From Candidatus Schekmanbacteria bacterium RIFCSPLOWO2_02_FULL_38_14 (lineage in GTDB: Bacteria; Schekmanbacteria; GWA2-38-11): a stretch of DNA of 64,000 nucleotides. The DNA lies in NCBI GenBank assembly GCA_001790855.1, contig MGDH01000009.1, positions 85,486-149,485 on the forward strand, given 5' to 3'. Shown here in pieces: positions 40,350-63,906 of the stretch. The translations under genes were made by a program, and so were the position numbers. Below the pieces are notes generated by a model. It did no database searches, was not told the DNA's origin, and saw only the letters and a list, made by a program, of their open reading frames with translations. Positions within the stretch are counted from its first letter, which is position 1; each line of letters begins with the position of its first letter.

Positions 40350-41490
40350 TTACTGTACCATCCCATTAGAAACTAAATAATCATAAATTGTTTTTGCAAC
40401 AAGTTTATGTCCCTCTTTATTCCAGTGAGAGTCTGAAGGAAGGAAAAGGTCAACTTTTTTCTCGTATTCACGCTGAGAAGGTAAAAGATCAAGAAAAGGG
40501 ATTTTATTTTCTTCTGTAAAATTTGCCAGTTCATCATTTATCCTTGTTACACTGTAATTTGCGGGATTCTCATGGTACCGGATTAACTCCTTTGCAAACG
40601 ATCCCTCAAAGACCTGGATTCTGTTAGGAATTAAGAAAATTAATGACTTCCCTCCTATCTGTTTTTCTAAAGAGTCAATGCCTTTTAGAAATCCTTTTGT
40701 TTTATTCATTGCCTCTTCAAGCTTAGAAGGATATTTCTTTAAATAAAATTTCATATCAAAAGGAATCCCTGAATTTTCCCAGGGCTTTTTTTTAAGGCCT
40801 TTCTTAATTAATAAGTTATTAACTCTATCCTCAAAAAATTCGTATGCCCTGCTATTCCTTTCTAAAAAGTTTTTGCGTCTCTCTTTTTGCTTATGTTCAA
40901 AAAGATCGAAGAGATAACCATCTTTAACTGTATAATGATTTATAGCCCCAATCATAACATCCTCTACGTCATATCTGAATATAAAAAGCTACTATTACTA
41001 AATCAGGTTTTAATTTAAATCCCCATTCCTTTAAATAGTAGTATTCCTGGTCAGTCCCGTAACCCATAACGCCTGCGTTTATAACCTCATATTTTTTGCC
41101 ATCATTTTTTTCCCCTAAAATCGATTCTAATTGTTTAACAAATGTGTCCTCAAACTCTACCCCGGCCCCGAATGTAAAAGAATCACCAAGAACCAGTATC
41201 CTAAAAGTATTTCCTTTTTTTCCTCCGTATTCATAATCCCTGAAACCAAGAGAGTTTGTCTCAGCTTTTGCTATATAATTTCCATCAGAATCAAGGAAAA
41301 CTCCTTTAAAATTTTTAACAAGTTTATAACCTCTTTTTTTATCTGTTTCATAAAGTCCTTTTGGGTGCGGAATGTATGTGTATCTATTTTTCAAAAAAAA
41401 TCTAAGTACGATTTCGAGCATTAAAAAGCAGAAGAGCAATGAGGATAATATTAAAATTACATTCTGAAAGGCTTTCTCATATTTGGTCAT
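40350..41490 (-). pseudogene. SGNH/GDSL hydrolase split by a frameshift
   Basis: Two adjacent frames make one protein. The N-terminal part (40969-41490, 173 residues) has a membrane helix and the SGNH block I (LVLGDSFTFGAG), and reads to PDLVIVAFYIQI then a stop. The C-terminal part, in another frame, continues DVEDVMIGAINHYTVKDG and ends with the catalytic SDSHW (block V). An indel near 40985 explains the switch; VAFYINDVEDV is the likely ancestral reading. The intact homologue at 62842-63906 has the same layout. Such proteins act as glycan O-acetyl esterases or transferases (AlgJ/AlgX-like). It is either a recent pseudogene or an assembly error. Confidence 0.85.
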
Positions 41491-41563
41491 AGTTTCCTTT
41501 TGGAAAAATACTTGAATAATTTAGGTAAATAGTATTAATGTCTAAAAATCAATATATTTTACA

Positions 41564-43540
41564 ATGGATAAAGAAATCACAAATAGAAATAGTATAGAAA
41601 AATTAAAATATTCTTTAATTATATCAGGCATTGTCATTTCAGCAATCCATCTAATCAGTCCATACATTCCTTTAAAGTTTCTTTGGGGATTTAATTTTTT
41701 CAGGTTCATCTCATTACCATCACAAATAATTCTTTTTATTCTTGGAATTTTAGTTTCAATTTCTTATTTTAATGAACTGATAAGTAAATTTTTAATTTTT
41801 ATTATAGAATACTTTAATAAAATTTTTAATAAAATTTCCACTAAGACACTCTATATTATTATATCCTTCCTTTTTTTCATTATTTTCTGGATATTCCGCT
41901 CAAGAAGACTTTATGGAGACGGTGTTTTTGCCGGATATGTCATTAAGGATAAAGTGTATTTAACAATTGATGGCTTATATAATTCAATATTTATCATCTC
42001 CCATTTTTTAATATCCCATGCATATAAAGCAGTGCTTAGACTTGACTATCCGTATGGATATTTTGTCACTTTCGCTTTAATCAACTGCATTTTAGGAAGC
42101 TTCTTTATTGCCGCACTTCTCTTCATATGCAAAGAACTCTCAGATAACATCTACAGGAAATTTTTTATTTTTTCCTTAATAATTTCACAGGGAGGAATTC
42201 AGATCTTGTTTGGTCATGTAGAAAGCTATACAGTACTCTTAACAGGAGGAATATTTTTTATACTTCTGGCATATTATTATATCCAGGGTAAGATTAATAC
42301 ATTCTTACCTGTTTTTACTCTCATCATAGCATCTATCCTTAAAATTACCACTATACAGTTATACCCTGCTTTAATTATCTTGGTTTTTTTAAAACTGATA
42401 AGAAAAAAAGATTTAAAATCAATTTATGAATTATTTTTAATATTGGGAATACCTCTTTTAGGGCTATTTACTTATTTAATAATGGCTTGGAAAACAGGAA
42501 AATTAAAGCTCTTTCTTAATTTACTCTTTTTTGCTGATAACTTTTTCCCCTTAATAAATCCAAAATCCCATAATCATTTATATACCCTTATCTCTTGGGA
42601 TTATTTAATAGTCTTTATCAATGAATTAATCTTAATATTTCCTATGGGAATATTACTGGCAATTTTTCCCCTATTTTTTTACAGAAAAAAAATAGAATAT
42701 AAAGATCCATTTTTTATATTTCTTTTAAGTTCGTCATTTTTCTGCCTTCTTTATAATGTCATCTCATATCCAATCTTAGGACCATTCAGAGATTGGGACA
42801 AGTATTCACTCACCTTTCTCCCGGTAAGTTTATTAGGAGTTTATTTATTGAATAAATATGTGAAAGAAGACAGACATTTCTTCTCAATAGCTTTACTGGT
42901 TCTGACTTTTTCACTTATCCATACGGTCCCCTGGATACTGGCTAATAATCAGAAAATTTTAACATTAAAACCTGAAACCGAATATACACACATAAGGGAT
43001 TATCTGGCCGGAGAAAATTATTTAAAGTCTTCTATCAGATCAGTAGACAATAATAATATTAAAAATAGAAATGCCCTTAAATGGTTTACCTTAGCGGCAA
43101 AATCTGATGTAAATTTAGGAGGAGATAATGATGAAATTGCTTTAAGATATTACCAAAAGGCAATTAATGAAAACCCGAATTTTGCTGAAGCCAGAAACAA
43201 TCTTGGAGTAATATATGATAAGATGGAAATGTATAATCAGGCATCAGATGAATTCAGAAAAGCGTTGGAAATAGACCAGAATCTAGCGGAAACTCATAAT
43301 AACCTGGGCATCCTCTTTGCAGACTGGATGTGGTGGAATGAAGCTTATTCTCATCACAAAAAGGCAACTGAACTGAATCCGAATTTGGCACAGGCTCATA
43401 ATAATTTAGGAATAGACTATGCAAATGTGGGAAAGTATAAAGAGTCTATAGAAGAATTTAAAAAGGCTCTGGAAATAAGTCCCGATTTGGAAATATCCAA
43501 AAAATACCTTGCCCTGATTTCAAAAATAATAAAAAAGTAG
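41564..43540 (+). CDS. GT-C-like membrane protein with C-terminal TPR repeats
   Basis: A 658-residue protein with about 12 membrane helices (to residue ~470). The first large loop (FRSRRLYGDGVFAGYVI) holds the Asp expected of GT-C enzymes. Residues ~510-650 contain about four TPR units (ARNNLGVIYDKMEMYNQASD, THNNLGILFADWMWWNEAYS, AHNNLGIDYANVGKYKESIE). The fusion resembles the TMTC family and the two other TPR proteins at 58891 and 60874, though the membrane part is diverged. It probably transfers a lipid-linked sugar to an extracytoplasmic acceptor, with the TPRs binding the acceptor. It is divergent from the broken SGNH gene. Confidence 0.75.
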   Translation: MDKEITNRNSIEKLKYSLIISGIVISAIHLISPYIPLKFLWGFNFFRFISLPSQIILFILGILVSISYFNELISKFLIFIIEYFNKIFNKISTKTLYIIISFLFFIIFWIFRSRRLYGDGVFAGYVIKDKVYLTIDGLYNSIFIISHFLISHAYKAVLRLDYPYGYFVTFALINCILGSFFIAALLFICKELSDNIYRKFFIFSLIISQGGIQILFGHVESYTVLLTGGIFFILLAYYYIQGKINTFLPVFTLIIASILKITTIQLYPALIILVFLKLIRKKDLKSIYELFLILGIPLLGLFTYLIMAWKTGKLKLFLNLLFFADNFFPLINPKSHNHLYTLISWDYLIVFINELILIFPMGILLAIFPLFFYRKKIEYKDPFFIFLLSSSFFCLLYNVISYPILGPFRDWDKYSLTFLPVSLLGVYLLNKYVKEDRHFFSIALLVLTFSLIHTVPWILANNQKILTLKPETEYTHIRDYLAGENYLKSSIRSVDNNNIKNRNALKWFTLAAKSDVNLGGDNDEIALRYYQKAINENPNFAEARNNLGVIYDKMEMYNQASDEFRKALEIDQNLAETHNNLGILFADWMWWNEAYSHHKKATELNPNLAQAHNNLGIDYANVGKYKESIEEFKKALEISPDLEISKKYLALISKIIKK

Positions 43541-43581: not shown

Positions 43582-44187
43582 TCAGGCAGAAACTTCTGCC
43601 AGTACAATGACCCAGGGAAATGGAGTTGCTATCTTTAAGATTTTAAAACCATCATTTTTTAATAATCCAAGAAACTGTTTTTTTGTCCAATTTTGCAAAT
43701 GTTCAGGGTCGTTTCCGAATCTGAAAAAATTTTTACATCGCAAAAAATTTGAAATCCTAAAAAGTGGTTCATGGGGAATACTTATAAGAGCATATTTACT
43801 TGTAATATTCTTAACTATTCTTAAAATCTCGTCAGGCTTTTTCATATGTTCTAATACCTCAATTAACATCACAAGCTCAAAAGACTTTTTTTCACATTGA
43901 AAATTATTAATATCACACTCAATAAATTTTGCTCTTGGATTTAAATCCCGGGCTAAATCCAGCGCTTTAGTATCTATATCCACCCCTGTAATTTCAAGAT
44001 AAGAATAAAATTTAGACAATTTATTGATTACAAACCCTTCTCCACACCCAAGATCTAAAACTTTTTTAACATCAATAGTACCAACCATTTGCAAAATCTC
44101 ATTTAGGAATCTATCTAATAATATTTTAACAAATGGGTTCTTGCTCTGGTATTTCTGAAGGTTGCCATAAGACTGGTGGGATATCAC
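43582..44187 (-). CDS. Class I SAM-dependent methyltransferase
   Basis: A 201-residue protein. VLDLGCGEG (43-51) is the SAM motif I; ITGVDIDTKALDLA and LVMLIEVLEHMKKPDEI are motifs II-IV of the UbiE/Methyltransf_11 type. It starts at GTG after an AGGAG about ten bases upstream. It may methylate a sugar or a lipid carrier; the substrate cannot be inferred. The stop is followed by the convergent end of the GT-C/TPR gene. A 7-base hairpin (GGCAGAA-AC-TTCTGCC) spans its last codons and may aid termination. Confidence 0.85.
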   Translation of the reverse strand: MISHQSYGNLQKYQSKNPFVKILLDRFLNEILQMVGTIDVKKVLDLGCGEGFVINKLSKFYSYLEITGVDIDTKALDLARDLNPRAKFIECDINNFQCEKKSFELVMLIEVLEHMKKPDEILRIVKNITSKYALISIPHEPLFRISNFLRCKNFFRFGNDPEHLQNWTKKQFLGLLKNDGFKILKIATPFPWVIVLAEVSA

Positions 44188-44205: not shown

Positions 44206-45141
44206 TTATATCTCCGAGATAATAATATCTTTATTACTCTCTTTAACAAAGCGAGCGGTAATCATCTCACCTATAAGACCCATAGAGACAAATTGGACAC
44301 CTAAGATTAACATGAGAATCCCCAATAGCAAAAGGGGCCGATCCCCTATCTTATAACCCTGAAATCGTAGGAATGACATATAGATACAAATCCCAAAACC
44401 TGTTCCGGAAACTATTATTCCTGATATTCCAAAAAAATGAAGCGGCCTTTCTTTATACCTTGTAAGAAGCAATACTGTGAGAAGGTCAAAACAACCCTTA
44501 ATAAACCTTCCAGGACCATATTTAGATTTTCCAAATCTTCTATAATGATGCTCAACAGGGATCTCACTTACTCTAAATCCTCGACCAGCAACGAGTATGG
44601 GAATATATCGGTACAACTCCCCATAGATGTTTATCTGCTCTAAAACCTCACGTCTGTAACATTTAAAGCCACAATTAATATCGTGGAGCCTCACACCAGT
44701 AAATAATGCCGTCATCTTATTGAATATCTTTGATGAGATAACTCTGAAAAAATGGTCATTCCTTTTTTGCTTCCATCCAGAAATGAGATCATATTCCTCT
44801 TTGATTTTTTGTAAAAACTTCGGGATTTCCTCCGGCTCATCTTGTAAATCCCCATCCATGGTAACAATAATCTTCCCTCTTGCACGTTGGAATCCAGTAG
44901 AAAGGGCTACTGCTTTCCCAAAATTCTTCCTTAGCTGAACCCCTCTAATGCTGTGATTTTTTTCATTAATTTCCTTAATGAAATCAAAAGAACCATCTGT
45001 ACTTCCATCATCGACGAAGAGAACCTCATAATTTGTACCAATTCTTTCTAACACATTGACTAACTTACTTGAAAGCTCCTTTAAGCTTTCTTTTTCATTA
45101 AAGACAGGAATAACTACTGAAACATCAAGAAAGTTTTCCAT
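44206..45141 (-). CDS. Polyprenyl-phosphate glycosyltransferase family 2 (GtrB/DPM1-like)
   Basis: A 311-residue protein. The GT-A domain (VVIPVFNEKESLKEL, FVDDGSTDGS, VQLRKNFGKAVALSTGFQRA, VTMDGDLQDEPEEIP) is followed by HYRRFGKSKYGPGRFIKG and two C-terminal membrane helices (~235-295). This matches GtrB/ArnC-type enzymes that make undecaprenyl-phosphate sugars. It probably supplies the donor for the GT-C proteins in this region. The methyltransferase gene lies 18 bases downstream. Confidence 0.93.
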   Translation of the reverse strand: MENFLDVSVVIPVFNEKESLKELSSKLVNVLERIGTNYEVLFVDDGSTDGSFDFIKEINEKNHSIRGVQLRKNFGKAVALSTGFQRARGKIIVTMDGDLQDEPEEIPKFLQKIKEEYDLISGWKQKRNDHFFRVISSKIFNKMTALFTGVRLHDINCGFKCYRREVLEQINIYGELYRYIPILVAGRGFRVSEIPVEHHYRRFGKSKYGPGRFIKGCFDLLTVLLLTRYKERPLHFFGISGIIVSGTGFGICIYMSFLRFQGYKIGDRPLLLLGILMLILGVQFVSMGLIGEMITARFVKESNKDIIISEI

Positions 45142-45715: not shown

Positions 45716-47518
45716 TTGGAAAAAAATATATTTTCAAAAATATTTAGAAATGAAAAGCTAAGAGTCATTCTTCTTTATTCAATAATAGTCATAATTCTTA
45801 CTTATCCTTTTATCTACAAAATTCATAATCACCTTTTCAGGGGTTTTCTAAGAAGCGAATATAACAATAACCCAGTCATCTGGGAACCCAGATGGGATGG
45901 TGCACATCCTGATACTTTTGGATTTATATATACTATGGCATGGATTTCTCATTCCTTAACAACTGATCCCAAAAATCTTTTTAATGCAAATATCTTTTAT
46001 CCCAACAAAAACGTATTAGCTTATCATAACCATAACTTTACAAATGCTTTAATAGCTCTTCCATTTAATGCTATTTTAAAGAATCCGGTACTGGCGTATA
46101 ATTTTTTGGTATTTTTTTCATACATTTCAGCCGCCTTTGGCATGTATCTTTTAACCAAATTCTTTATTGATGACAAACTAATCTCTTTTACAAGCGGATT
46201 GATGTTTGTCTTCACATGGTTAAACTATTTTTATATCCAAGGGATTGAAGTAATTTCTACAGAATGGATACCTTTAACTTTTCTCTACCTGTTCAAATTT
46301 CTTGATTCTAAAAAAACAAAACATATTTTTTTATTTCTAATATTCTTTCTCCTTGGAGCTTTGACTTCATGGTATTTTCTCGTCTATTTGGTTTATAGTC
46401 TTGCTCTTCTCATTATTATCCAGATAATCTATAGATGGAGGGAAATCCTGACTCCCAGAAATCTAATCTTATTTTTAATCATTTTCATATTAGCTGCTGC
46501 TGTCATATATCCAATCTCATTACCATATTTAGAGAACAGACACCAGTTCCCTGACTTTAAAAGAACTAAAGCTAACACATTAATGGAGGCTGATTATTTA
46601 GATTACTATTTATTAACCATAGATAAGATGAAATATCTTCAATATATTTTATGTGCTTATATTCTGATAACCCTTTTGGGCAGAAAGAAAGATTCTGAAA
46701 ACGAGAACAGACTAATGCCTGCAAAGATATTTTTTTTACTCCTTGCTTTTTTTTCATTTTTACTTTCCATGGGACCTCGTTTAAAAGCTTTTGGAAAGGT
46801 ACGAAACATTCCTTTACCATATACACTGCTATTCGATTATTTCCCTGGATTTGAGATTACAAGAAACCCAAGACGATTCGAGGTTCTTTTAAACCTATCT
46901 TTGAGTTTCATAGCATGCTTAGCCATTTGGTACATAATTAAAATGATAAAGGGTGACGGTGTTAAAAAAGCTGTTAAAATCGCTTTAATCTTAATCCCAA
47001 TTGTCAACTATTCCCATATAGCCAATTTCCCAAACATGCTTCAGTATTGTCCAAGGGGCGATGAAGTCTACAAAGTTTATAAATGGCTTGCTTCTTTAAA
47101 TGAAGATGTATCTATCTATCAAACTTCATATAATAAACAAAATGGTTTTGCAAAGCCTGGCCATAGTATGAGAGAAGCAATTTATACTTACTATTCAATT
47201 TATCATTGGAAAAAAACCGTAAATGGGATTGCTACATGGATACCTCCGAGTTTTCGAAAACTTATTAATATGGAAGAACAATTCCCTTCCAAAAAGTTTC
47301 TAAATGAATTAAGGAACCTCGGCACTAATTATATAATAGTTATAGACTGTGTTGGTGATCTTCTGGACGTAAAAAATGGACCTTTAGAAGAATTACTTAG
47401 AGATAATGAAATAAGACTGATAAAAAAAGATACTGGCATAAAAAAGCTGAGATACAACTACGCCTATGAGATAATTTATAAAAATAAGTCACCCCAATAT
47501 AAAGATATCCCTTCCTAA
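45716..47518 (+). CDS. Multi-spanning GT-C-like membrane protein
   Basis: A 600-residue protein with 11-12 membrane helices and a short soluble C-terminus (~490-600). The first periplasmic loop contains EPRWDGAHPDTFGFIYTMAW, with an Asp/His cluster where GT-C enzymes carry their catalytic acid. It belongs to the broad class of uncharacterised bacterial membrane glycosyltransferases (YfhO/GT39-like). The only suitable start is TTG, with a weak ribosome site. It is first in a plus-strand run of six genes (to 55347) and probably uses polyprenyl-phosphate sugars. Confidence 0.62.
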   Translation: MEKNIFSKIFRNEKLRVILLYSIIVIILTYPFIYKIHNHLFRGFLRSEYNNNPVIWEPRWDGAHPDTFGFIYTMAWISHSLTTDPKNLFNANIFYPNKNVLAYHNHNFTNALIALPFNAILKNPVLAYNFLVFFSYISAAFGMYLLTKFFIDDKLISFTSGLMFVFTWLNYFYIQGIEVISTEWIPLTFLYLFKFLDSKKTKHIFLFLIFFLLGALTSWYFLVYLVYSLALLIIIQIIYRWREILTPRNLILFLIIFILAAAVIYPISLPYLENRHQFPDFKRTKANTLMEADYLDYYLLTIDKMKYLQYILCAYILITLLGRKKDSENENRLMPAKIFFLLLAFFSFLLSMGPRLKAFGKVRNIPLPYTLLFDYFPGFEITRNPRRFEVLLNLSLSFIACLAIWYIIKMIKGDGVKKAVKIALILIPIVNYSHIANFPNMLQYCPRGDEVYKVYKWLASLNEDVSIYQTSYNKQNGFAKPGHSMREAIYTYYSIYHWKKTVNGIATWIPPSFRKLINMEEQFPSKKFLNELRNLGTNYIIVIDCVGDLLDVKNGPLEELLRDNEIRLIKKDTGIKKLRYNYAYEIIYKNKSPQYKDIPS

Positions 47519-47595: not shown

Positions 47596-49581
47596 ATGAG
47601 TAAGACCAATTCAGCAAAAAATAAAATAATTACCTTAACTTTTTTGATATTTGCATTTTTAGTAATCAGAATTACTTTTCTCCTCCTCTCCTTTTACTTC
47701 ATTAACAACCATGAAGAACTTTACAATGGTACTTTTGCTCATGATTTTATAAATAACCCAAAACTATTCTTCAACTACCCTGCCCTTCCGCTCAGCTATC
47801 AGTACATGCCTTTTGCAGGAGGAACTTTAGTCGTCAGCCTTTTAGCAACACCATTTTTTTTTATTTTTGGAAGTTCTATATTTTCACTAAAATTGTTATC
47901 ACTTTTTATTTCCATTATTGCATTTATAATATTTTTTCTTTTACTTGAGAAATTCTTCAGCTTAAAAGCTGCCTTGATTTTTGGAATCCTTTCTGCAATT
48001 TCACCGCCTTATCCTGTTATTATGTCCCTGATCCTTTGGGGAAACCATTACGAATCAATTTTACTTTCCGCACTTCTTATCTTCTTAATGTTCCATTACT
48101 GGACAAGGAATAAAAAGGAAAATTACAGGTATCTTATTTTTTCAGGTTTAGTTGCTGGATTTGGAATTTATTTTGACTATATCTTTTTTATAACTGTTGT
48201 TACAGTTATAACTTTTCACTTTTTGTATAATAGAGGCACTCTAAACAAGAAAGAGATGCTTTTATCTCCTATATCAATTTTAATAGGGCTGATCCCGTGG
48301 TTTTTTAGTATAATTTTCTTTAAACTCGACAACCTCACAATTTACCAGTTACTTAAGGCAAACTTCTCACCTGACTACCTAATTAAAAAGTTTCTAAACT
48401 TGGTGGTCCTTGATATTCCTAACTTTTTCTGGATAAAAGAATTTTATCTCTTTCGTATTAACGTTTTCTCAAATATTTATTATTTACTTTTTTTAATCTC
48501 ATTTTTTTATTTTTTATTTACCGGTATAAGAAGTTATCTAAAATTTAGATTACTGCCAAAAGAATTTTTATTTGTAGTATATATAATTTTATTTTCTATA
48601 ATTTTTACTCTTTCTAAATTTACAACCAGTGACACTCTACTTGAGTTAAATCTCAATCTCCATCCTTTTAGAATTTACCGCTATAGGTTTCTGGTTCCGT
48701 TATATCCTTTCATCATAATTCTGATCTCATTATTCTTAGCAAAGCTGAAGAAACATATTGTTTTTATTCCTATAACTGCAGCCCTTCTGATAATCTCTTT
48801 AGCTTCATACTCAGATTATCTCTCCACAAAAACTATAGGTGAGTGTTTTATTTATAAGGGCTATAGTTACAACATTCTTTCTGAAAAACTAGCAAGCAAT
48901 TACAGCCTGAAGAAATGTAGTGAAATAATTAGTAATTTGCCGAAGGAATATCGTCTTAAGCTTTATAAAGGGCTGGGGTTCTATTTTGCACAAAATGAAG
49001 GTGGATTCATACTGAATAAAAAAATATCACAATTTATTAATATAAATTATGAAAATTCATTTTATGAAGGGGTTGGGGGTGGACTAACAGAAAGATATAA
49101 AAATTTTAATGAAAGCTTAAAAATAATAGAGAAATTTGACGACAAAAACAAAATTCATTATCTCATGGAAGGGATAATGGAATTTTCCCCTTTGTTTAAC
49201 AGTTTTAAGGATATTACTGAATATTTAAACTCTTTGGCAAGTCAACAGTCTGATTACCTCTACAAGGCAATGGGTAAAGGTGCATATATATTACTAGGCC
49301 CCGATTATATTAATAAAGCAAGAAGTGAAACTGAAGGCAGTAGCAATATCATAATCTCTTTTTATAACGGTGTTGGAGAGGCAATATGGGAACAGATTAT
49401 TGATAAGAGGCAAACATTGTTGGGCAAAAAGGATATCCCTTCAATATTCCATGCAGATTACGACACAACACTTTCTAAAATATTAAACAGCAACAACGTG
49501 CTTAATAAAATTGATAAAAATATTTTACCTTATGTCAGGGAAGGACTGGAAAAAAATATTAACCTCAACAACCTTGAATGA
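47596..49581 (+). CDS. Multi-spanning GT-C-like membrane protein
   Basis: A 661-residue protein with about 11 membrane helices in residues 1-~410 and a ~240-residue soluble C-terminal domain. The first loop (NNHEELYNGTFAHDFINNP) carries acidic residues and a His-Asp pair, as in GT39-type enzymes. ISAISPPYPVIMSLILWGNHYES is a typical following helix region. The C-terminal domain, rich in GxGFYFAQNEGG and GVGGGLTE-type segments, is unfamiliar to me. It starts at ATG 77 bases after the previous gene and is followed by the sulfatase-like genes. Confidence 0.6.
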   Translation: MSKTNSAKNKIITLTFLIFAFLVIRITFLLLSFYFINNHEELYNGTFAHDFINNPKLFFNYPALPLSYQYMPFAGGTLVVSLLATPFFFIFGSSIFSLKLLSLFISIIAFIIFFLLLEKFFSLKAALIFGILSAISPPYPVIMSLILWGNHYESILLSALLIFLMFHYWTRNKKENYRYLIFSGLVAGFGIYFDYIFFITVVTVITFHFLYNRGTLNKKEMLLSPISILIGLIPWFFSIIFFKLDNLTIYQLLKANFSPDYLIKKFLNLVVLDIPNFFWIKEFYLFRINVFSNIYYLLFLISFFYFLFTGIRSYLKFRLLPKEFLFVVYIILFSIIFTLSKFTTSDTLLELNLNLHPFRIYRYRFLVPLYPFIIILISLFLAKLKKHIVFIPITAALLIISLASYSDYLSTKTIGECFIYKGYSYNILSEKLASNYSLKKCSEIISNLPKEYRLKLYKGLGFYFAQNEGGFILNKKISQFININYENSFYEGVGGGLTERYKNFNESLKIIEKFDDKNKIHYLMEGIMEFSPLFNSFKDITEYLNSLASQQSDYLYKAMGKGAYILLGPDYINKARSETEGSSNIIISFYNGVGEAIWEQIIDKRQTLLGKKDIPSIFHADYDTTLSKILNSNNVLNKIDKNILPYVREGLEKNINLNNLE

Positions 49582-54612: not shown

Positions 54613-55347
54613 ATGGAAAATCAGCATATAGATTTATCAGTTGTAATACCCGCTTTTAATGAAGAAAATAGAATTTTTAAATCTCTTGACGCTATTGATA
54701 CATATCTGTCCTCTAAGAATCTCAGATATGAAATAATAGTGGTTGATGATGGAAGCAATGACAATACACCCTCCATCGTAAAAGCGTTCTGCAAAACTCA
54801 CGCCAGGGCCTTTTATACAACTTATGGGAAAAATATGGGTAAGGGCTATGCTGTAAGACAAGGTGTAAATATTTCAAAAGGATATTTTGTACTGTTTTCC
54901 GATGCTGACCTTTCAACTCCAATAGAAGAAATAGAAAAATTAATTAAAGCTATCAAAAGCGGCTATGATATATCAATTGGCTCAAGGGCTTTATCAGACT
55001 CGGAAATAATTATCTCACAACCCTTTTACCGCAAAACAATTGGGAAAATTTTTAATATTCTGGTAAGGTTACTCATATTCGGAGGAATAAAAGATACTCA
55101 GTGCGGATTTAAATGTTTTACGGGAACAGCAGTAAAAAAGATTTTCAGCAAATGCAGAATAAACGGCTTTAGTTTTGATGTTGAAGCGCTTTTTATCGGG
55201 AAAAAACTTGGTTTTAAGATAATGGATATTCCTATTCAATGGATTAACTCGCCTGAAAGCAGGGTTCACCCTATAAAGCATTCTCTGGCAATGATAAAGG
55301 AACTCCTGCAGATCAGATGGAATGAGATGAGAGGGTTGTATAAGTAG
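54613..55347 (+). CDS. Polyprenyl-phosphate beta-glycosyltransferase (ALG5/DPM1-like GT2)
   Basis: A 244-residue protein: LSVVIPAFNEENRIFKSL, IIVVDDGSNDNT, GKNMGKGYAVRQGVN, LFSDADLSTPIEEIEKL and DTQCGFKCFTGTAVKKIF. The DADLSTP motif and layout match dolichyl-phosphate beta-glucosyltransferase (ALG5) and its bacterial homologues. It should make a polyprenyl-phosphate sugar donor. No C-terminal membrane helix is present. It is last in the plus-strand run, 18 bases after the GT-C gene. Its stop codon lies in the palindromic repeat that follows. Confidence 0.9.
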   Translation: MENQHIDLSVVIPAFNEENRIFKSLDAIDTYLSSKNLRYEIIVVDDGSNDNTPSIVKAFCKTHARAFYTTYGKNMGKGYAVRQGVNISKGYFVLFSDADLSTPIEEIEKLIKAIKSGYDISIGSRALSDSEIIISQPFYRKTIGKIFNILVRLLIFGGIKDTQCGFKCFTGTAVKKIFSKCRINGFSFDVEALFIGKKLGFKIMDIPIQWINSPESRVHPIKHSLAMIKELLQIRWNEMRGLYK

Positions 55348-55412: not shown

Positions 55413-56681
55413 TTAGTGAATAAGATACCCTTTTCTTTCCTCTAAAAAAAATCCAAGACATAATACAGAAAAAACATACCCTAAATAGTTGTCATGCAAA
55501 AATCTTGAGAAGTAGAGCAAGACAAATGAAAGTATTCCGTAGCTTATGAGCATGAAATTAATAGTATTATTTTTAAGCTGTCTCCTTAACAAGAAGTAAA
55601 GTAATGGCAAACCTGTTATAAGCTGGAGATATTTAAACGGGAAATAATCACTTTTCGAATACCCAATAAATAGTAAAAGATTTGAAAAGCCATAACCAGG
55701 AGTTCCACCCAGAGGATATGCCTCATCCCAGTTAAAGATATCTTCTTTAAACGAGTGAAAATCCAATATTAAAAATGGAAGAATAAATATTAGAAAAATA
55801 AGAATAAAAGGATATGTATTTTTAAGAAGAAACATTAATTTTTTCCCCAAATTCTCTGATTCATTATTTTTGCCCCAGATATAAGTTATAAAAAAAGGGA
55901 TTAAAAACCATGCTGTGGGCTTGCTGACACAGGCGAGCCCCAAAAAAACAGATGCAGTTTTAAGCCTGTCGCGCATCAAAAAAAGGAAACTCATTAACAG
56001 CCAGAATAACAAGAATATTTCATTCCTGCCATCCGCAAGAAAATAAGTAAAAAATGGATTTAATGAAATGGTGATAAGAAGCAGAGCCTTACTCCTGAAA
56101 TCAATGGCAAGCTTCGGAATAGTATATAGAGATAGCCCAAACATTAAGATGTATATAAACCTCATATCAAACCACCCTATTGTAGCTTTTGATAAAAAAT
56201 AAAAAGGAATAGGGAAAAGAAATGTAAGAGGCAAGTATGTGTAGTGATGAATAAGGGAGTTTTTTATTTCATCAAGTTTATACACAGTATAATGCTCATC
56301 AAGGATTGTATTATAGTAGTCTTCATGATAAGGGTTTTCTCCTTTTATAAAATACTTTATGGCTTCTTCTGTCTGAATAACTCCGCCGTCATGGGCAAAT
56401 TCATAGGGGTTCCCATTATGTCTCTGAGAAATTCTATGAAGACAGGGGATAATGGCAAGAAGTGATATAATAAGAATAATTATTATAAATTTGCATGTAT
56501 TTAGGTAAGAAATATTATTTTCCCGTGCATTCAGCATCACATCAATTAACAGGTAAATTCCAAGGAGGAAGATTACAATCGGATGAACTACTAATCTTAT
56601 CTCAGCAGGAACAAATTTGATTACTGAGAGGGTTGCAAGAAAAAGAATTATTGTATCTATTGAAATTATGTTTTTTTTCAC
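55413..56681 (-). CDS. GT87-like membrane mannosyltransferase (GT-C)
   Basis: A 422-residue protein with about ten membrane helices. The loop after the third helix (NPYEFAHDGGVIQTEEAIKYF) has the Asp-Gly-Gly context, and HHYTYLPLTFLFPIPFYFLS fits the DUF2029/GT87 type (polyprenyl-phosphomannose-dependent alpha-mannosyltransferases). It starts at GTG; the first base pairs of its start overlap the stop of the sulfatase-like gene (GTGA). It is last in a minus-strand run of five genes that begins at 63906. Confidence 0.65.
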   Translation of the reverse strand: MKKNIISIDTIILFLATLSVIKFVPAEIRLVVHPIVIFLLGIYLLIDVMLNARENNISYLNTCKFIIIILIISLLAIIPCLHRISQRHNGNPYEFAHDGGVIQTEEAIKYFIKGENPYHEDYYNTILDEHYTVYKLDEIKNSLIHHYTYLPLTFLFPIPFYFLSKATIGWFDMRFIYILMFGLSLYTIPKLAIDFRSKALLLITISLNPFFTYFLADGRNEIFLLFWLLMSFLFLMRDRLKTASVFLGLACVSKPTAWFLIPFFITYIWGKNNESENLGKKLMFLLKNTYPFILIFLIFILPFLILDFHSFKEDIFNWDEAYPLGGTPGYGFSNLLLFIGYSKSDYFPFKYLQLITGLPLLYFLLRRQLKNNTINFMLISYGILSFVLLYFSRFLHDNYLGYVFSVLCLGFFLEERKGYLIH

Positions 56682-58894
56682 TGGATGTATCCTAAAGCCC
56701 TTATCTGGTCTTTTGTCTTTTCATCTACTTTTGTTTTTACCGCCGGGACTGCTGTTTTATTAATATATTCCAAAAGATGATTAATTTTTCCATTAATCAT
56801 TATTAGCTCTTCAGGTTTTTGTTTGATTATATTAAGAAATTCTTCACTGTCTGTTTGCAAGTTAAATAATTCTTTAGTTTCTGAAGCGCTAACCTCTTTG
56901 TTTTTAAAAAGTTTTGTAAAAATATATTTATAATTTTCCATTCTGAGAGAATGAAGCATCATAGGTTTCCCAAATGCAAACAGTTCCTCTAAAAATATAA
57001 AATCTCTCTGTTCCTCTGAATGTACATCTTTTATCAAAGGTAAAAGAGACTTTCCTTCTATTGGCCCTTTATATTGAATATTCAGGATATTAAGAATTGT
57101 AGGCAATATATCAATAGTACAAACCTGATATACCACTTTTCTATTAACAGGAATATAACCCGGCAGTCTCATAATCAAAGGAACAAAAATCTCTTCCTGA
57201 TAAAGAGTAAAACCATGTTCTTTATTTCCATGCTCAAGGAAAGCTTCTCCATGGTCAGAAAGCAATATAACCAATGTGTTTTTAGTAAGGTTTAGCTCAT
57301 CAACAGTCTTTAGCAATTCTCCGATGTTCAGATCAGTAAACTCTATCTCCCCATCATAAAGAGCCATTTCCGTCCTATTAATATCAAATCTGTCATTTCC
57401 CTTGTAAACTTCAGGATCTATCCCTTTGACGTATTTCTTGTAAAAAAAATCAGGAGGTTTATATGGTGAATGAGGATCTTTATAATGAAGATAAAGGAAA
57501 AACTTTTTATCTTTGTTATTCCTTAACCAAGGTACTATTGTACTATTGAGAATATCAGCATTAACTATATCTTGAGTAAGGAATCTATTCCTTGATATAC
57601 TCATTACTATTCCTCCAATAAAGGAGTTTCTTAACACAGAGTAATATATTTTATCTTTTGTAAACTCATCAATGTAAAGGTCAAATCCTTGCTGAAAGTT
57701 AAAAGGCTTTCCAACAATTGGATTAGCTATAAAAGCAGCCGTGGTATAATTATAACTTTTCAATATCTCAGCTATAGTGGTCGCACGATCAGGCAAAATG
57801 TCCTCAAAAGTATTCGTATTATGCTGAGTTGGATAAAGTGATGTAAAAAGGGATGCAACACTCGACTTTGTCCATGATGCTTGTGAAAAGCTGTTTGTAA
57901 ATAAAACCCCTTCTTTTGCTAATTTATCAATGTTAGGACTTGTATTTTGCCCATATCCATAACAGGATAAATGGTCAGCTCGCAGAGTATCAATTAGAAT
58001 TAATATTACATTTAGATAATCCTTGTTAGAAACTGTGTTTACAGAATTCTTCGCAGAAAAGGTTTCCAATCCAATTTCACGGTTTTCTTCAAAATATCCA
58101 AAACAGGTTAAACCAATTAAAAGTATTAAAATGAATACAGAAGCTATACCAAATTTAGAAATGGATAAAAATTTTGAGTTTGGTTTCAAGACTTCTTGAG
58201 GGCTTTTCTTTCCCAAACCAAAAATTCGTTCATAACATATTGGACTGAGGCTTAAAACTGAAAAAAGTATAAACAAACTTAATAAAAAGTTTATACTCCG
58301 AAAAGTCCTTGGCACATATTCTATGAAATATCCTACAAAGAAAAATCTTAAGAGCATAGTCAATCCCGCAAGAAAAAGAAAATTAACTAGAATAAAAAAC
58401 CAATATCCCTTGGAAGTAGCATTATAGATCCTGAAAGAAAGGTGAAATGATAAGAGTCCGATAATTAAAATAACAAAATATAAAATAAGGTTATGAAAAA
58501 CTATTTCTCTGTTGCTCATGCAAGGCCGTATCTTATTCAAAAATGGCAAGCCCCAGTTTATAAATATGATTTCTGAATATAATCCCCAATAGATAGCCAT
58601 TACAGGCCATACCTTATCTAAATTATTTTCATCTTTTTTATATAGGTTCCATAACAAACAAACAGGTATAACTGGCAGGAACATTATTATTGTAAACCCA
58701 AAAGAATTTATTGAAAGAAGATATATTCCGAGTAAAACCTTTTCTGTTGATAAGAGATAATCGAATTTTATTTTATTTCGCTCATTATCTAGTTCTTTAA
58801 AAGCGGTAAACTTAATTATTTCGTAGGCACCAAATGTTATTCCAATAATAAACCCTAATAATATGAAAATTAATATTAAATATTTTCTATTCAT
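56678..58894 (-). CDS. Membrane-anchored sulfatase-like phosphotransferase (LtaS/EptA-like layout)
   Basis: A 738-residue protein. About seven N-terminal membrane helices (1-~265) precede an extracytoplasmic alkaline-phosphatase-superfamily domain: LILIDTLRADHLSCYGYGQ, nucleophile region ASWTKSSVASLFTSLYPTQH with Thr, HYKDPHSPYKPP, LLSDHGEAFLEHG. The tail KDQIRALGYIQ matches the ends of the two soluble paralogues at 49630 and 51125. Membrane part plus catalytic domain and a Thr nucleophile resemble LtaS/EptA-type phosphoglycerol or phosphoethanolamine transferases, though the substrate may differ. Both ends overlap neighbours by four bases. Confidence 0.85.
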   Translation of the reverse strand: MNRKYLILIFILLGFIIGITFGAYEIIKFTAFKELDNERNKIKFDYLLSTEKVLLGIYLLSINSFGFTIIMFLPVIPVCLLWNLYKKDENNLDKVWPVMAIYWGLYSEIIFINWGLPFLNKIRPCMSNREIVFHNLILYFVILIIGLLSFHLSFRIYNATSKGYWFFILVNFLFLAGLTMLLRFFFVGYFIEYVPRTFRSINFLLSLFILFSVLSLSPICYERIFGLGKKSPQEVLKPNSKFLSISKFGIASVFILILLIGLTCFGYFEENREIGLETFSAKNSVNTVSNKDYLNVILILIDTLRADHLSCYGYGQNTSPNIDKLAKEGVLFTNSFSQASWTKSSVASLFTSLYPTQHNTNTFEDILPDRATTIAEILKSYNYTTAAFIANPIVGKPFNFQQGFDLYIDEFTKDKIYYSVLRNSFIGGIVMSISRNRFLTQDIVNADILNSTIVPWLRNNKDKKFFLYLHYKDPHSPYKPPDFFYKKYVKGIDPEVYKGNDRFDINRTEMALYDGEIEFTDLNIGELLKTVDELNLTKNTLVILLSDHGEAFLEHGNKEHGFTLYQEEIFVPLIMRLPGYIPVNRKVVYQVCTIDILPTILNILNIQYKGPIEGKSLLPLIKDVHSEEQRDFIFLEELFAFGKPMMLHSLRMENYKYIFTKLFKNKEVSASETKELFNLQTDSEEFLNIIKQKPEELIMINGKINHLLEYINKTAVPAVKTKVDEKTKDQIRALGYIQ

Positions 58895-60822
58895 TTACTC
58901 AGAGCTTCAATCTCTTTCAAGATAGCTTGATTATTTGGGGAAATTTTCAAAAGTTTGTTCAAGATTTCTGAAGCCTTAACTTTATCTCCTTTTGCCTTGT
59001 ATATCAATCCGAGATTCCAGTAAGCCTTGTAAAGATTAGGCTCTGATTTAATTACACTTTCGTATTCAGATATAGAATTATCTAAATCTCCTTTTAAAAA
59101 ATAAATATTTGCCAGATTCAGTTTTGCCATTTTATTTTCAGGGCTATATAAAAGAGCTTTTCTTAAAGATATTTCAGCGTCTCCATACATTTTCTCTATA
59201 AGCTCCATTACTCCAAGATTATTATAGTTATTAGAGATTTTCAACTTAATCTTTTCGCTTATTTCAGGATTTGTCACTTCTTTTATCATTAGTTCTTTTT
59301 CCCGCTTGGCTTCACTTAAAGCTCGCCTGTATTCCTCATGTTCAGGGTTTATCCTGACTGCTTTTTCATACTGAATAATTGCTTCATCCAGCAGCCCGAT
59401 TTTATAATATAGCAGTCCGAGGTTAAACTGTGCACCCGGAATATTAGGGTTCAGTTTCAAAGCTGATTTAATCTCAACTAAACTCTTTTGATAATTTTTA
59501 ACAGTTGCATATAAAGTTCCAATATTAGCATGTGCTTTGGCAAAATAGGGATTTAATTCTAAAGCTTTTTTATATGAATTAATTGCCTTATCATAAAGTT
59601 TAGCATCGGAATATGCAATTCCAAGATTATTATAGGCTATAAACATGTCAGGAGATTTTTTAATTGTATCTTCCATAAGGGTTATACTGTTTTTCCAGAC
59701 CTTATTCCTCTCAACAGTCAGGATAGAAAATAATAACAGCACTGGCATTATAACAAACAGAGACTTAATTTTTAAAGTTCTGCCGGACAACTTATTAAAT
59801 AATATGGAAGCAAAAGCAGCAAAAGCAATAGATGGAAGATACAAATACCTGTCCGCTTTCAAAGTAGATATTGGTATTATGTTAGAAACTGGAAGTATTG
59901 TGATAACAGACCAGATAAGAAAAAAAAGAGAGTGTGAATTAAACTTAATTTCCTTTATAGATATGATTAAAAATATTATTAACAAAATTAAGAACATGAT
60001 AGATTTAAAAGTTATCTCTATTGGTATCATATAGCGCATACACAGATTAACAGGCAAAAATATCAACCTGAGATAGTCGAAGAACACTCCGTTCATCAGC
60101 ATAAAATTCACTGAGAAAGTATCCCCAATATGTTCCTTTACAACTCCCTTTTCAACCCCAACTTTTAATGTAATAAAAGCAGAAATGACAGCAACTATAA
60201 AAAAAGGGGAAACCTTAGGCAAAATTGTTTTCCATTTATTTTCAATCTTATTTATAGTCAGTTCGTAAAGTATAAGGACAAGAGGCAAAATGACCACTGT
60301 TGGCTTTGAGAGAAGCGCTAGGATAAAAGAAAGCAAAGCAAATATATTGCGGTTTTTCAGATAAGCATAAAAAGAGAGGAAGAAAAATAGCCCTGACAAC
60401 AAATCCTTCCTCCCTGAAATCCATGCAACTGATTCTACATGGATTGGATGGACAGTAAAGACTATTGTTCCTATAAAAGATATGAATTTATCCTTAAAAA
60501 TAAATTCAAAAATCAAATATACCAGCAAACAATTTAAAACAAATAGTACCACATTGGACAGGTGAAAACCAAAAGGATTTAATTTCCAGAGATAATAGTC
60601 AATGGCATATGACAACTCTTTTAAAGGAAGATAGTCGGTTACAGTAGGAGTAGTCAGGATTTTTTTTAATTTTTCTAAATTTAAATCCTGGATCCTGTAA
60701 TTGTACAGTATCAGCTCATCATCATCCCAGTTAGTAAAATCATTCCATAATGTATTGAAATAAATAATCGCAGCTGAAAAAAAGATTAACAGCAGGTATA
60801 TATTCTTATCTTTTATTTTCAC
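58891..60822 (-). CDS. TMTC-like membrane glycosyltransferase with C-terminal TPR repeats
   Basis: A 643-residue protein with about ten membrane helices (to ~375) and then around seven TPR units (IAYNNLGIAYSDAKLYDKAI, AHANIGTLYATVKNYQKSLV, AQFNLGLLYYKIGLLDEAI and others). The first loop has TNWDDDELI, then a long loop with YLPLKELSYAIDYYLWKLNP, and VHPIHVESVAWISGRKDLLS. This order is that of the animal TMTC1-4 O-mannosyltransferases and their bacterial homologues. The Asp pair in WDDD is the likely catalytic acid. It starts at GTG and overlaps the sulfatase-like gene by ATGA. Acceptor unknown. Confidence 0.85.
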   Translation of the reverse strand: MKIKDKNIYLLLIFFSAAIIYFNTLWNDFTNWDDDELILYNYRIQDLNLEKLKKILTTPTVTDYLPLKELSYAIDYYLWKLNPFGFHLSNVVLFVLNCLLVYLIFEFIFKDKFISFIGTIVFTVHPIHVESVAWISGRKDLLSGLFFFLSFYAYLKNRNIFALLSFILALLSKPTVVILPLVLILYELTINKIENKWKTILPKVSPFFIVAVISAFITLKVGVEKGVVKEHIGDTFSVNFMLMNGVFFDYLRLIFLPVNLCMRYMIPIEITFKSIMFLILLIIFLIISIKEIKFNSHSLFFLIWSVITILPVSNIIPISTLKADRYLYLPSIAFAAFASILFNKLSGRTLKIKSLFVIMPVLLLFSILTVERNKVWKNSITLMEDTIKKSPDMFIAYNNLGIAYSDAKLYDKAINSYKKALELNPYFAKAHANIGTLYATVKNYQKSLVEIKSALKLNPNIPGAQFNLGLLYYKIGLLDEAIIQYEKAVRINPEHEEYRRALSEAKREKELMIKEVTNPEISEKIKLKISNNYNNLGVMELIEKMYGDAEISLRKALLYSPENKMAKLNLANIYFLKGDLDNSISEYESVIKSEPNLYKAYWNLGLIYKAKGDKVKASEILNKLLKISPNNQAILKEIEALSK

Positions 60823-60873
60823 TTTTCTTTGCTTGAAAATGTATAGTGTGAGAATATAAAATAAATATTTCTT

Positions 60874-62793
60874 TTATTTGGACCCTCTCTGCGGCTTTCC
60901 GAGGGAAGCTTCAATCTCTTTTATATAGTTTATTGCAAGGCTGTTTTTGGGATCTATTTCTAAAACTTTTTTAAAATTTTTCATCGCCATATCTTCTTTG
61001 CCCTGTTCCATATATATTAACCCTAAATTTCCGTAAGCCTGGGGATATTTTGGATCAAGCTTTATTGCCTTCTCACATTCTATCCTTGCCAAATCCATTA
61101 ATCCCTTTCTGTAATATACCAAGCCTAAATTGCTGTGGGCATCAGCAAGGTCAGGCCTCATTTTTATTGATTCCTTGTATTCCTTGATAGCCTCATCATC
61201 TCTTCCTTCCATAAAACAGAAAAGTCCTAGGTTGTAATGGGCATGTGGGTTACGGGGGTCTAACTTTATTACTTCATTAAATTTATCCTTAGCCTCTTTT
61301 GTTCTTCCAAGATTCATGTAAAGGGATCCAAGGTTGATATTTGCATCAGCATAATCATTTTTCAGTTTAGCTGCAGCCTTATAAAATTTTTCTGCTCTTT
61401 TGATATTTCCTTTTTTCTCATAAGCACCACCGAGATTATTCAGAATCAGATACAGAAAAGGACTTTTTCCCTCTTTTGCTAATGGCTCAAGAATCTTAAT
61501 AGACTCATCCGGATGGTTTTCTCTTAAATATGCCAATCCCAGATTGCTCCTGGCAAGCTGCGAAGAAGGGCTTTTGTCATAAATATTTTTAAAAAAAATT
61601 ACCTCACTATCATAATCTAAATTCCTGGCATAAGAAAGCAATGAATAGAGGACAAAAAAAATTACAAGCAGGGCAGAAACAAACCTTCTATAATTATTTT
61701 TTTGCCTGACAATACTTTCTAAGTTTTTTATTATTAATGCCAGAAAAAGACTAAACCCGACAGAAGGAATGTATAACCATCTCTCTGCCATCATAGACCC
61801 AGGTATTGGAATGAGGTTTGATATTGGAAGAAAAGTTACAAATAGCCAGAGAACAGAGAAAAGGCTCTCTTCTCTTAGCTTAAAAATACAGGCAAGAACC
61901 AGCAGAGTTAAAATGCCTATTGAAATAAATATCTCTGTATTTAGAATTGACCCGGGAGCAGGAATTTCATACCATCCAGACATCCCTGCTGGTATAAGCA
62001 GGAGCTTAATATATTTCTTTATAACTACAAGCTGCATCAAAAAGTTGGAATAAATATTTCCTCCCCAGAAATTAAGAACTGAATTTTTTTTATCCTCTAA
62101 ATTTGAGCCGTGCAGAATCAGATACCAGAAAACAAAATAGAAAACGCTCAGTAAAAAATAAGGGATATAGGAAGAAAATCTGGATAATGATATTTTAATC
62201 TCTCTCCTTCCAATAACTCTGTCATATATGATAATAAGAAATGGCAGAACTATTGCTATCTCCTTTGAAAGCATTGAAAGAACATATGCAATCAGCGAAA
62301 AATAATAAAATAGTTTTTTCCTGTCCCCTTCTGCATCCAAAGACTTAATATACAGAAGAAAAGAGGTTAAAAAGAAGAAACAGCAGACAAGGTCAGACCT
62401 GCCCAAAAAAAGATTTACCGCTTCAGTATGAATTGGGTGAAGGGCAAATATTGCCCCTGAAAGAACTGACACCCACTCATTCCTGAATGTTAAGTTGGCT
62501 ATATAGAAAACTAAGGCAGTGTTGCAGATATGCAGTAAGATCTGTGTAAGATGATATCCAAAAGGCTTTAATCCAAAAATAACATAGTTAAGAGCAAAGG
62601 AAAATGTAACAACTGGCCGCTGAGGAATAGGATTGGAAAAAAAATAATTTTTAAAATTTAATGGCGTCCGTAAAACATAATTATTTACAACCAATTCCTC
62701 ATCATCCCAGTAAAAGGGATTGTCCAGCGAAATAGTGTATATTGAAAAAATTATTATTGCAGTAGCTGATAAAAATAATAATTTTCTGTTCAT
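60874..62793 (-). CDS. TMTC-like membrane glycosyltransferase with C-terminal TPR repeats
   Basis: A 639-residue protein of the same layout as its neighbour. The first loop has FYWDDEELVVN, then RPVVTFSFALNYVIFGLKP and LHPIHTEAVNLFLGRSDLV. Residues ~410-630 form at least six TPRs (ARSNLGLAYLRENHPDESI, ADANINLGSLYMNLGRTKEA, AHSNLGLVYYRKGLMDLA, AYGNLGLIYMEQGKEDMA). The two proteins are paralogues but clearly diverged, so they probably serve different donors or acceptors. It likely adds a sugar from a polyprenyl-phosphate donor on the extracytoplasmic side. Confidence 0.86.
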   Translation of the reverse strand: MNRKLLFLSATAIIIFSIYTISLDNPFYWDDEELVVNNYVLRTPLNFKNYFFSNPIPQRPVVTFSFALNYVIFGLKPFGYHLTQILLHICNTALVFYIANLTFRNEWVSVLSGAIFALHPIHTEAVNLFLGRSDLVCCFFFLTSFLLYIKSLDAEGDRKKLFYYFSLIAYVLSMLSKEIAIVLPFLIIIYDRVIGRREIKISLSRFSSYIPYFLLSVFYFVFWYLILHGSNLEDKKNSVLNFWGGNIYSNFLMQLVVIKKYIKLLLIPAGMSGWYEIPAPGSILNTEIFISIGILTLLVLACIFKLREESLFSVLWLFVTFLPISNLIPIPGSMMAERWLYIPSVGFSLFLALIIKNLESIVRQKNNYRRFVSALLVIFFVLYSLLSYARNLDYDSEVIFFKNIYDKSPSSQLARSNLGLAYLRENHPDESIKILEPLAKEGKSPFLYLILNNLGGAYEKKGNIKRAEKFYKAAAKLKNDYADANINLGSLYMNLGRTKEAKDKFNEVIKLDPRNPHAHYNLGLFCFMEGRDDEAIKEYKESIKMRPDLADAHSNLGLVYYRKGLMDLARIECEKAIKLDPKYPQAYGNLGLIYMEQGKEDMAMKNFKKVLEIDPKNSLAINYIKEIEASLGKPQRGSK

Positions 62794-62841
62794 AATTATT
62801 AATTTTTTACAAAAATATCAATCGCAATACTTATGATACTT

Positions 62842-63906
62842 TTACCTGATTACATTGCTTTCAACCAGCTTTTCATAAATAGCCCTTGCAATTACTTCGT
62901 AGCCATAAGGAGTGCAGTGGCCATCTTTTTTCCAAAAAAGCATCTTTCCTTTTTTGATTTCTTTTATAATCTGAGGGTATGTATCTATATATAAATATCC
63001 ATTTTCTTTTGAAAACCTTTCCAATCTTTTACCAGTGTAAGAAAAATCAACGTCTTTGAGAAAACTCGGAAACTCAGGTATATTAACTATAACCACAGGA
63101 CTGCCAATTGACTTTCCAATCTCTATAATTTTCTGAAACTCCTGTTCAACTTTTCTCCAGTCCTTTTCATGAAATCCGTTTTCTTTATAGATTTCTTCCC
63201 ATTTTGCGGGCTTTTCTTTCTTCAGCTTATAACTGATATAAGCCCTGATAAATACTCTTGCCAGATGATACCGCTTAAATAATCTCATTCCGGTTTTTCC
63301 AATATCAGATGACTCCTTTGTGCTTAAAAATCCGTTTTTAACCTGAACTGAGCTCGCTCCATAATATGTACCAATAATATCATTTGGCAAGAATCCTGCG
63401 ATTATCAAATCAGGACTGTATCTTATTCCGTAATGCTCGAGCAAAATCCGTTCCGGCTCTGTGAAGTATCCTCCTGTTCCCGTTTTGATGATTTCAATTT
63501 TTTTAGGGCTGTATTTTTCATTCAGCATCTTTTCTAATTTATAAAAATATGAATCCTTAAATTCTGCTCCTGCACCCATTGTAAAGCTGTCTCCAAGCCC
63601 GACAATACGGTAAACGCCTATCGGTTTCTGATAGTTGTGCTCAAAATCCCTGAAACTGACACTATTAATCTTAACCATTACATCAAACTCTCCAGACCTT
63701 TTAATCCTGAATTTGATATTTGGTATATACTTGTAAGGAAGGTATTTATCAGTAATATAAACCCTGTAATCCTTCGGTAAGGGGCATATATTAAATATCC
63801 TCATAAATATCTCTGCCGCAATCAAAGAAACAATCAATACAATTACAAGGTATGAAATATAGAATAAGTTACTATTTTTTTTGCTTTCCAATGTAGATTT
63901 TTTCAT
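62842..63906 (-). CDS. Membrane-anchored SGNH/GDSL hydrolase
   Basis: About 354 residues from the ATG at 63906; a TTG three codons earlier is open but less likely. One N-terminal membrane helix (~14-37), then SGNH block I IVGLGDSFTMGAG, block III-like region PDLIIAGFLPNDI with the Asn, and block V KDGHCTPYGYEVIA with the Asp-x-x... His pair. It probably removes or transfers O-acetyl groups on an extracytoplasmic glycan. The homologue at 40350-41490 is frameshifted. It is first in the minus-strand run to 55413. Confidence 0.87.
   Translation of the reverse strand: MKKSTLESKKNSNLFYISYLVIVLIVSLIAAEIFMRIFNICPLPKDYRVYITDKYLPYKYIPNIKFRIKRSGEFDVMVKINSVSFRDFEHNYQKPIGVYRIVGLGDSFTMGAGAEFKDSYFYKLEKMLNEKYSPKKIEIIKTGTGGYFTEPERILLEHYGIRYSPDLIIAGFLPNDIIGTYYGASSVQVKNGFLSTKESSDIGKTGMRLFKRYHLARVFIRAYISYKLKKEKPAKWEEIYKENGFHEKDWRKVEQEFQKIIEIGKSIGSPVVIVNIPEFPSFLKDVDFSYTGKRLERFSKENGYLYIDTYPQIIKEIKKGKMLFWKKDGHCTPYGYEVIARAIYEKLVESNVIR

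Follow-up and report, generated by a model that had tools for sequence, protein, structure and literature searches.

What does a cluster of polytopic glycosyltransferases, some of them joined to tetratricopeptide repeats (TPRs), do beside an exopolysaccharide (EPS) locus in a bacterium? The question is raised by a 64,000-nucleotide stretch of the genome of Candidatus Schekmanbacteria bacterium RIFCSPLOWO2_02_FULL_38_14 (contig MGDH01000009.1, positions 85,486 to 149,485; 'the window' below), where positions 40,350 to 63,906 hold genes for GT-C-type membrane proteins, glycosyltransferases of family GT2 and enzymes of the alkaline phosphatase superfamily. In eukaryotes, TMTC1-4 combine a GT-C domain with TPRs and O-mannosylate cadherins from dolichyl-phosphate mannose. 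An initial annotation of the window had read the region as a possible bacterial system of this kind, and all the open reading frames (ORFs) on which it was built were recovered in place.

Here, we examined the region in its own genome (G000, an assembly of 43 contigs), in the other three members of a four-genome phylum sample (G001, G002 and G003), in a wider sample of 241 bacterial genomes, and in a distant comparison set of 40 TMTC-bearing genomes, from which 39 loci were retrieved. The central result is that two window proteins can be placed, on motifs, repeats and profiles, in the TMTC family, and that they probably glycosylate exported molecules, because they lie beside a locus for surface polysaccharide and surface-protein sorting. 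In the literature that we found, the TMTC family has been studied only in animals: the search retrieved no work on bacterial TMTCs, and one paper mentions prokaryotic homologues in passing (PMC7801869).

TMTC-type proteins in the window and in other bacteria

The proteins encoded at 58891 and 60874 (genes are designated by the first coordinate of their ORF) each have 7-10 transmembrane (TM) segments, with TPRs at the C terminus. They were compared in an alignment of 24 TMTC-like sequences, both included, using as reference the table of human motifs M1-M7 published in PMC7801869. Seven residues are invariant (D30, D31, P120, K177, P268, Y341 and R390). M1, the DD of the first external loop, occurs in 24/24 members, the two window proteins among them; M4 retains its Lys throughout and its Glu in most members, M7 takes the form E/D-R/H-xx-Y in all 24, and M2 (RP) and M3 (RxD) are found in many. 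At M4, 60874 reads KEIAIV, lacking the final Thr of KE(T/Q)xxT, and 58891 has KP; their M7 motifs are ERWLY and DRYLY, respectively. A syntenic relative of 60874 (35%) lies in G002 (C15, L056:15568-17529), and the two are grouped in the tree with support of 99/94. The tree also supports a KP/LP subclade, kept in three genera, that unites 58891 with L047:4117-6315, L056:4380-6404 and L113:9149-10867 and possibly has altered chemistry or serves as a partner subunit. The idea that a KP-type copy always stands next to a KE-type copy was dropped, as the copy on G003:C154 stands alone.

A third TPR protein, 41564, had initially been counted as TMTC-like, and here the count does not hold. In the alignment it has KD instead of DD and lacks ERxxY, and its hhalign probability to the family is just 36%; on present evidence it is therefore not TMTC-like. 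Unrelated polytopic proteins of the examined genomes, used as negative controls for hhalign, all gave <=2.1%.

How widespread is the family? A search with the GT-C domain of 60874 recovered 13 full TMTC-like genes, its own included, and one contig-end piece in G000, and each of the four phylum genomes contains 9-15 matches to the family profile. At E<=1e-30 the profile matches 97/241 of the sampled bacterial genomes, so that TMTC-like proteins, as this profile delimits them, are common in bacteria; viral contigs were searched for relatives, and none was found. PF08409, which covers the DUF1736 segment, has no match in G000, matches 3 of the 24 relatives weakly (best 0.006), and gives 8 matches in the 241 genomes, 2 of them above cut-off. 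All eight of these proteins also match the family profile, none worse than 1e-69 and each along most of the profile; because two independently built profiles coincide, the PF08409 family appears to be the family profiled here. Motifs, TPRs and this link together uphold the assignment of 58891 and 60874.

Coupled enzymes, donor synthases and the exosortase locus

The three alkaline-phosphatase-superfamily proteins (49630, 51125 and 56678) are of the Thr type, as initially described. None carries a C/S-x-P-x-R signature, with Thr at the nucleophile and no Arg; among 25 relatives in loci of the phylum, the nucleophile position is Thr in 23, Ala in one and uncovered in one, and the CxPxR sulfatase signature is absent from all. 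These enzymes are therefore not formylglycine-dependent sulfatases, and the sulfate decoration proposed with them is not supported. They are probably phospho-transferases or hydrolases, their superfamily suggesting a phosphotransferase or phosphodiesterase role. Their best sequence matches are arylsulfatase models, those to transferase models being weak (in NCBIfam, 51125 and 56678 weakly match EptA/MCR-type transferases); of the features of EptA/PptA/LtaS-type enzymes, the Thr nucleophile is present in all three and the 6-TM region only in 56678.

Are these enzymes tied to the TMTC-like genes? The four-base gene overlaps remarked on at the outset are real, but they number three rather than many (51125/52549, 55413/56678 and 56678/58891). 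G000 has seven Thr-type relatives in four clusters, and in three of these (C5, C32 and the window) one gene shares 4-8 bases with a TMTC-like gene; under random placement, contact with a TMTC-like gene in three of four clusters has P of about 1e-4, and chance co-occurrence is thus not what this genome displays. Six of the seven enzymes lie within 10 kb of a TMTC-like gene in G000 and 3/6 in G001, the link being weak in G002 and G003. Two further overlaps were found in G001 (C37 and C17). The operons on C5, C32 and G001:C17 open with a small CarboxypepD_reg-like beta-sandwich protein that has an N-terminal hydrophobic segment and is probably secreted. On G001:C37, a 67% identical relative of 56678 sits in an identical gene arrangement; the TMTC there groups in the tree with a copy from C28 and is not the orthologue of 58891, so that the gene position has been kept and the TMTC exchanged. 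G002 and G003 share a PEP-CTERM gene followed by a TPR gene and then a sulfatase-TPR fusion (L098:166-4181 and L107:4294-8206).

The window contains six well or fairly supported GT-C proteins, the number initially given; 41564, which was among those counted, is uncertain. Three of the six (45716, 52549 and 55413) were tied to GT-C profiles by hhalign at 84-94%, directly or via the 47596 family. Relatives of 52549 (42% in G002:C15, 79% in G001:C71) both adjoin a sulfatase-like gene, and those of 55413 were found in G001:C37 (70% identical) and G002:C9 (42%). The two donor-making enzymes claimed for the region were confirmed by profile matches: 44206 has both the GT2 domain and the two C-terminal TMs of the ArnC/GtrB type, and 54613 has the GT2 domain only and resembles dolichyl-phosphate mannose (DPM) synthase. 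Relatives of 54613 stand next to TMTC-like genes (76% in G001:C37, 56% in G002:C15), and donor GT2 genes adjoin TMTC-like genes in the same order in three genera. A MurJ-type flippase and a GT2-DUF2304 pair adjoin a TMTC triple on contig C37 of G000, and also occur at the matching place in G002.

The module had been taken to be separate from the adjacent EPS locus, in which chain-length, export, deacetylase and PrsT proteins match TIGR03007, TIGR03027, TIGR03006 and TIGR02917 above cut-off; the genome has 6 PEP-CTERM matches. This separation is not supported, because in G002, of another family, the module and the XrtA exosortase/EPS locus are collinear within about 68 kb. On one side the order there is sulfatase, 52549-like GT-C, 54613-like GT2, GT87 gene, 60874-like TMTC and Ser/Thr-rich lipoproteins, continuing with four TMTC genes, DUF2304, GT2, MurJ and a methyltransferase; on the other side the XrtA EPS genes run to the exosortase. 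The window and contig C37 would show the same arrangement provided that C9, at its right end, runs into C37 at its left end, and the module and the EPS locus are best regarded, on synteny, as one superlocus. Compared with the XrtA/PEP-CTERM EPS system of Haft 2006 (PMC1569441), it shares the exosortase, PrsT, PrsK-like kinase, chain-length, export and deacetylase genes, and the portions of that paper available to us do not name a TMTC-like/GT-C/Thr-type block among the parts.

Table 1. Annotated features of the window, in coordinate order
Feature	Positions	Strand	Basis
XrtA/PEP-CTERM exosortase and EPS locus	3..36029	-	NCBIfam models above cut-off
Parts of the EPS locus	exosortase 1811-2644; deacetylase 29557; EpsB-type 30468; kinase 32566; chain length 33430; export 35208
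GT2 glycosyltransferase	39545..40294	+	Pfam GT2
SGNH/AlgX-like gene, frameshifted	40350..41490	-	Split into ORFs 40350-40955 and 40969-41490
TPR-bearing polytopic membrane protein, not of the TMTC type	41564..43540	+	DD, HP and ERxxY motifs absent
S-adenosylmethionine-dependent methyltransferase	43582..44187	-
Polyprenyl-phosphate glycosyltransferase (ArnC/GtrB type), 2 C-terminal TMs	44206..45141	-	Full-length ArnC/GtrB/DPMS match, E 2.8e-57
GT-C-like membrane protein	45716..47518	+	hhalign 93.9% to TMTC profile; no Pfam match above cut-off
GT-C, PMT_2-type membrane protein	47596..49581	+	Pfam PMT_2 E 2.5e-7, above cut-off
Thr-nucleophile alkaline-phosphatase-superfamily enzyme	49630..51054	+	Pfam sulfatase-family domain; 74% identical to 51125
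Thr-nucleophile alkaline-phosphatase-superfamily enzyme, single N-terminal TM	51125..52552	+	Pfam sulfatase-family domain
GT-C-like membrane protein	52549..54594	+	hhalign 93.9% to 47596 family; 4-base overlap with 51125
GT2 polyprenyl-phosphate-sugar synthase, DPM1/ALG5-like, no TM	54613..55347	+	DPM synthase match, E 2.2e-20
GT-C (GT87-like) membrane glycosyltransferase	55413..56681	-	Pfam GT87 E 0.0034 (below cut-off); hhalign 84.6% to TMTC profile
Thr-nucleophile alkaline-phosphatase-superfamily enzyme, N-terminal 6-TM region	56678..58894	-	SWTKSS, SDHGE; Pfam sulfatase-family domain
TMTC-family GT-C glycosyltransferase with TPRs, variant subclade	58891..60822	-	KP for KE (M4), LP for RP (M2)
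TMTC-family GT-C glycosyltransferase, C-terminal TPRs	60874..62793	-	Motifs DD, RP, RSD, KE, ERWLY; Pfam PMT_2 above cut-off
SGNH/GDSL-like protein	62842..63915	-	Below Pfam cut-off

Predicted mechanism and its rivals

The explanation we favour, tentatively and with slightly less than even confidence, is that the region encodes TPR-guided periplasmic glycosyltransferases which, within the exosortase/EPS superlocus, act on exported proteins together with phospho-modifying partners. It starts from observed homology, motifs, gene coupling, synteny and copy number; its topology, sugar, acceptor and phospho-chemistry we infer. The region would be the distal part of the XrtA superlocus and encode an extracytoplasmic glycosylation module. 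The cytoplasmic GT2 enzymes 44206 and 54613 would, as their families suggest, produce polyprenyl-phosphate monosaccharides, which would be flipped and then used by the periplasmic GT-C enzymes. By analogy with human TMTCs, 58891 and 60874 would take the sugar from its polyprenyl-phosphate carrier and attach it to exported acceptors that their TPR domain selects in the periplasm; surface proteins are the likeliest of these, whether secreted, of the PEP-CTERM type or lipoproteins. The coupled Thr-type enzymes would put a phospho-group onto that acceptor or glycan, or take one off. In the human case, beta-strands of immunoglobulin (Ig)-like extracellular cadherin (EC) domains, which are beta-sandwiches, are modified, and the TPRs are thought to recruit them (PMC11292533); the small CarboxypepD_reg-like proteins are of the beta-sandwich type too.

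From gene position, our guesses at acceptors are the CarboxypepD_reg proteins, the PEP-CTERM proteins and a lipoprotein of 1042 amino acids (aa) adjoining the TMTC triple. The lipoprotein, whose counterparts in another family (39-41%) occupy the corresponding position, contains 20% Ser+Thr, the highest of 215 proteins, a value whose weight is limited by exported proteins being commonly Ser/Thr-rich anyway. A protein rather than a glycan as acceptor is consistent with the results but unproven. Large Ser/Thr-rich lipoproteins with no Pfam domain were seen by TMTC clusters in two families (L047:311-3439, L056:6973-10161 and L056:12283-15474).

Several results weigh against the favoured explanation. 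58891 may be altered or inactive, because KP replaces the KE of TMTCs, and in the 24-sequence alignment M5 (DW) was not found and M6 (PxxP) is half preserved. In G002, the sulfatase relative that occupies the corresponding position (L096:3129-4973) carries Ala at the nucleophile site and has lost the DHG motif. A sulfatase-type gene is adjacent to the TMTC-like gene in just 1/39 distant loci, and a threshold of E<=1e-15 leaves 12/40 distant TMTC-bearing genomes without any sulfatase match. A general TMTC-sulfatase link in bacteria is thus rejected: the expected co-conservation of TMTC-, DPM- and sulfatase-like genes holds between genera of the phylum, but the TMTC-sulfatase link is almost absent in distant bacteria and is lineage-specific. 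In structures predicted from window proteins only (alignments of 2 and 3 rows), the C-terminal TPR domain of the TMTC-type protein is well modelled, but the GT-C part (pLDDT mostly <50) and the model of a sulfatase-type enzyme (mean pLDDT 45) are both too poor for the fold to be judged. When the GT-C domain was compared by profile with solved structures, only TPRs were matched. Finally, with an EPS locus alongside, a glycan would be just as natural an acceptor.

This last point leads to a rival of almost the same likelihood, particularly where GT-C genes devoid of TPRs are concerned, namely tailoring of EPS or lipopolysaccharide (LPS). The GT-C enzymes would then supply EPS, LPS or lipid-linked precursors with side-chain sugars; phospho-groups would come from the Thr-type enzymes and acetyl groups from the SGNH proteins, and the TPRs would assemble an export complex; ArnT and EptA, which modify lipid A, offer a model for such tailoring. 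Tailoring is favoured by the collinearity with the EPS locus, by the SGNH/AlgX-like genes, by the weak EptA/MCR-type matches, and by the pairing of TPR-less GT-Cs with Thr-type enzymes (52549-51125 and 55413-56678) unaccompanied by any protein gene. However, 11/13 full TMTC-like genes lie off the window's contig, 8 of these also outside the superlocus piece on C37, beside housekeeping or secreted-protein genes, and the characterised TMTC members act on proteins (PMC11292533).

That the region has no joint function, being a surface-polysaccharide island that gathered unrelated membrane glycosyltransferases and hydrolases by chance, seems improbable. It would suit the lack of any common neighbour family among the immediate neighbours of TMTC-like genes in distant bacteria, and the non-orthologous TMTC of the G001 operon, but order and strand are collinear across families, four-base overlaps recur in independent loci, and the permutation result speaks against chance. 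Least probable is that the TMTC-like proteins are scaffolds or sensors with an inactive GT-C part: the KP subclade with 58891, and one member, in L113, in which DV replaces DD and HS replaces RN, point that way, yet DD, Lys and ERxxY-type motifs are strictly kept in nearly all members.

Relation to known systems

The window proteins resemble TMTC1-4 in their N-terminal GT-C domain with DD, RxD, KE and ERxxY and in their C-terminal TPRs, and differ in being bacterial, in occurring as 13 full copies in a single genome, in being coupled to Thr-type enzymes, and in an external loop 4 (EL4, DUF1736) segment that lacks DW and falls below the Pfam cut-off. A full bacterial counterpart of the animal pathway, with TPR-guided single sugars on folded beta-sandwich domains, a Thr-type enzyme adding a phospho-group and about a dozen dedicated enzyme-substrate pairs, all built into an exosortase sorting locus, is an unlikely extension. 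The ArnC/ArnT/EptA system for lipid A likewise has an ArnC-like donor synthase, a GT-C transferase and a periplasmic alkaline-phosphatase-superfamily transferase; here, by contrast, the genes are adjacent and overlapping, TPR domains are present, and an exosortase locus lies alongside. In Neisseria, pilin is one protein that receives both an O-linked sugar and a phospho-form, PptA belonging to the phosphoethanolamine transferase family (PMC4010543); sugar and phospho-modification would be shared with the present case, although the sugar-transferase family is another. The aligned bacterial relatives keep the catalytic motifs. With a bacterial TMTC member, the way in which the enzyme works and selects its substrates could be tested without animal cells, and light might be thrown on the glycosylation of surface proteins sorted by exosortase.

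Of the SGNH hydrolases initially listed, two genes stand, after ORFs 40350 and 40969 were merged into a single frameshifted one. Its intact relative in G002 (L095:3791-4933) has 380 aa, and the frameshift at 40350-41490 may mark a real pseudogene or an assembly error. Elsewhere, near a TMTC-like gene on contig C38, a type IV pilin-like gene precedes one for a TPR-bearing Wzy_C protein, similar to O-antigen ligase/PglL (L048:8708-11281), and in G001 a multihaem-cytochrome-like protein (L058:8564-9841; several CxxCH by eye) adjoins a TMTC-like gene. Within the EPS locus, positions 20591-20971 (minus strand) resemble, by eye, an IS3-type transposase fragment.

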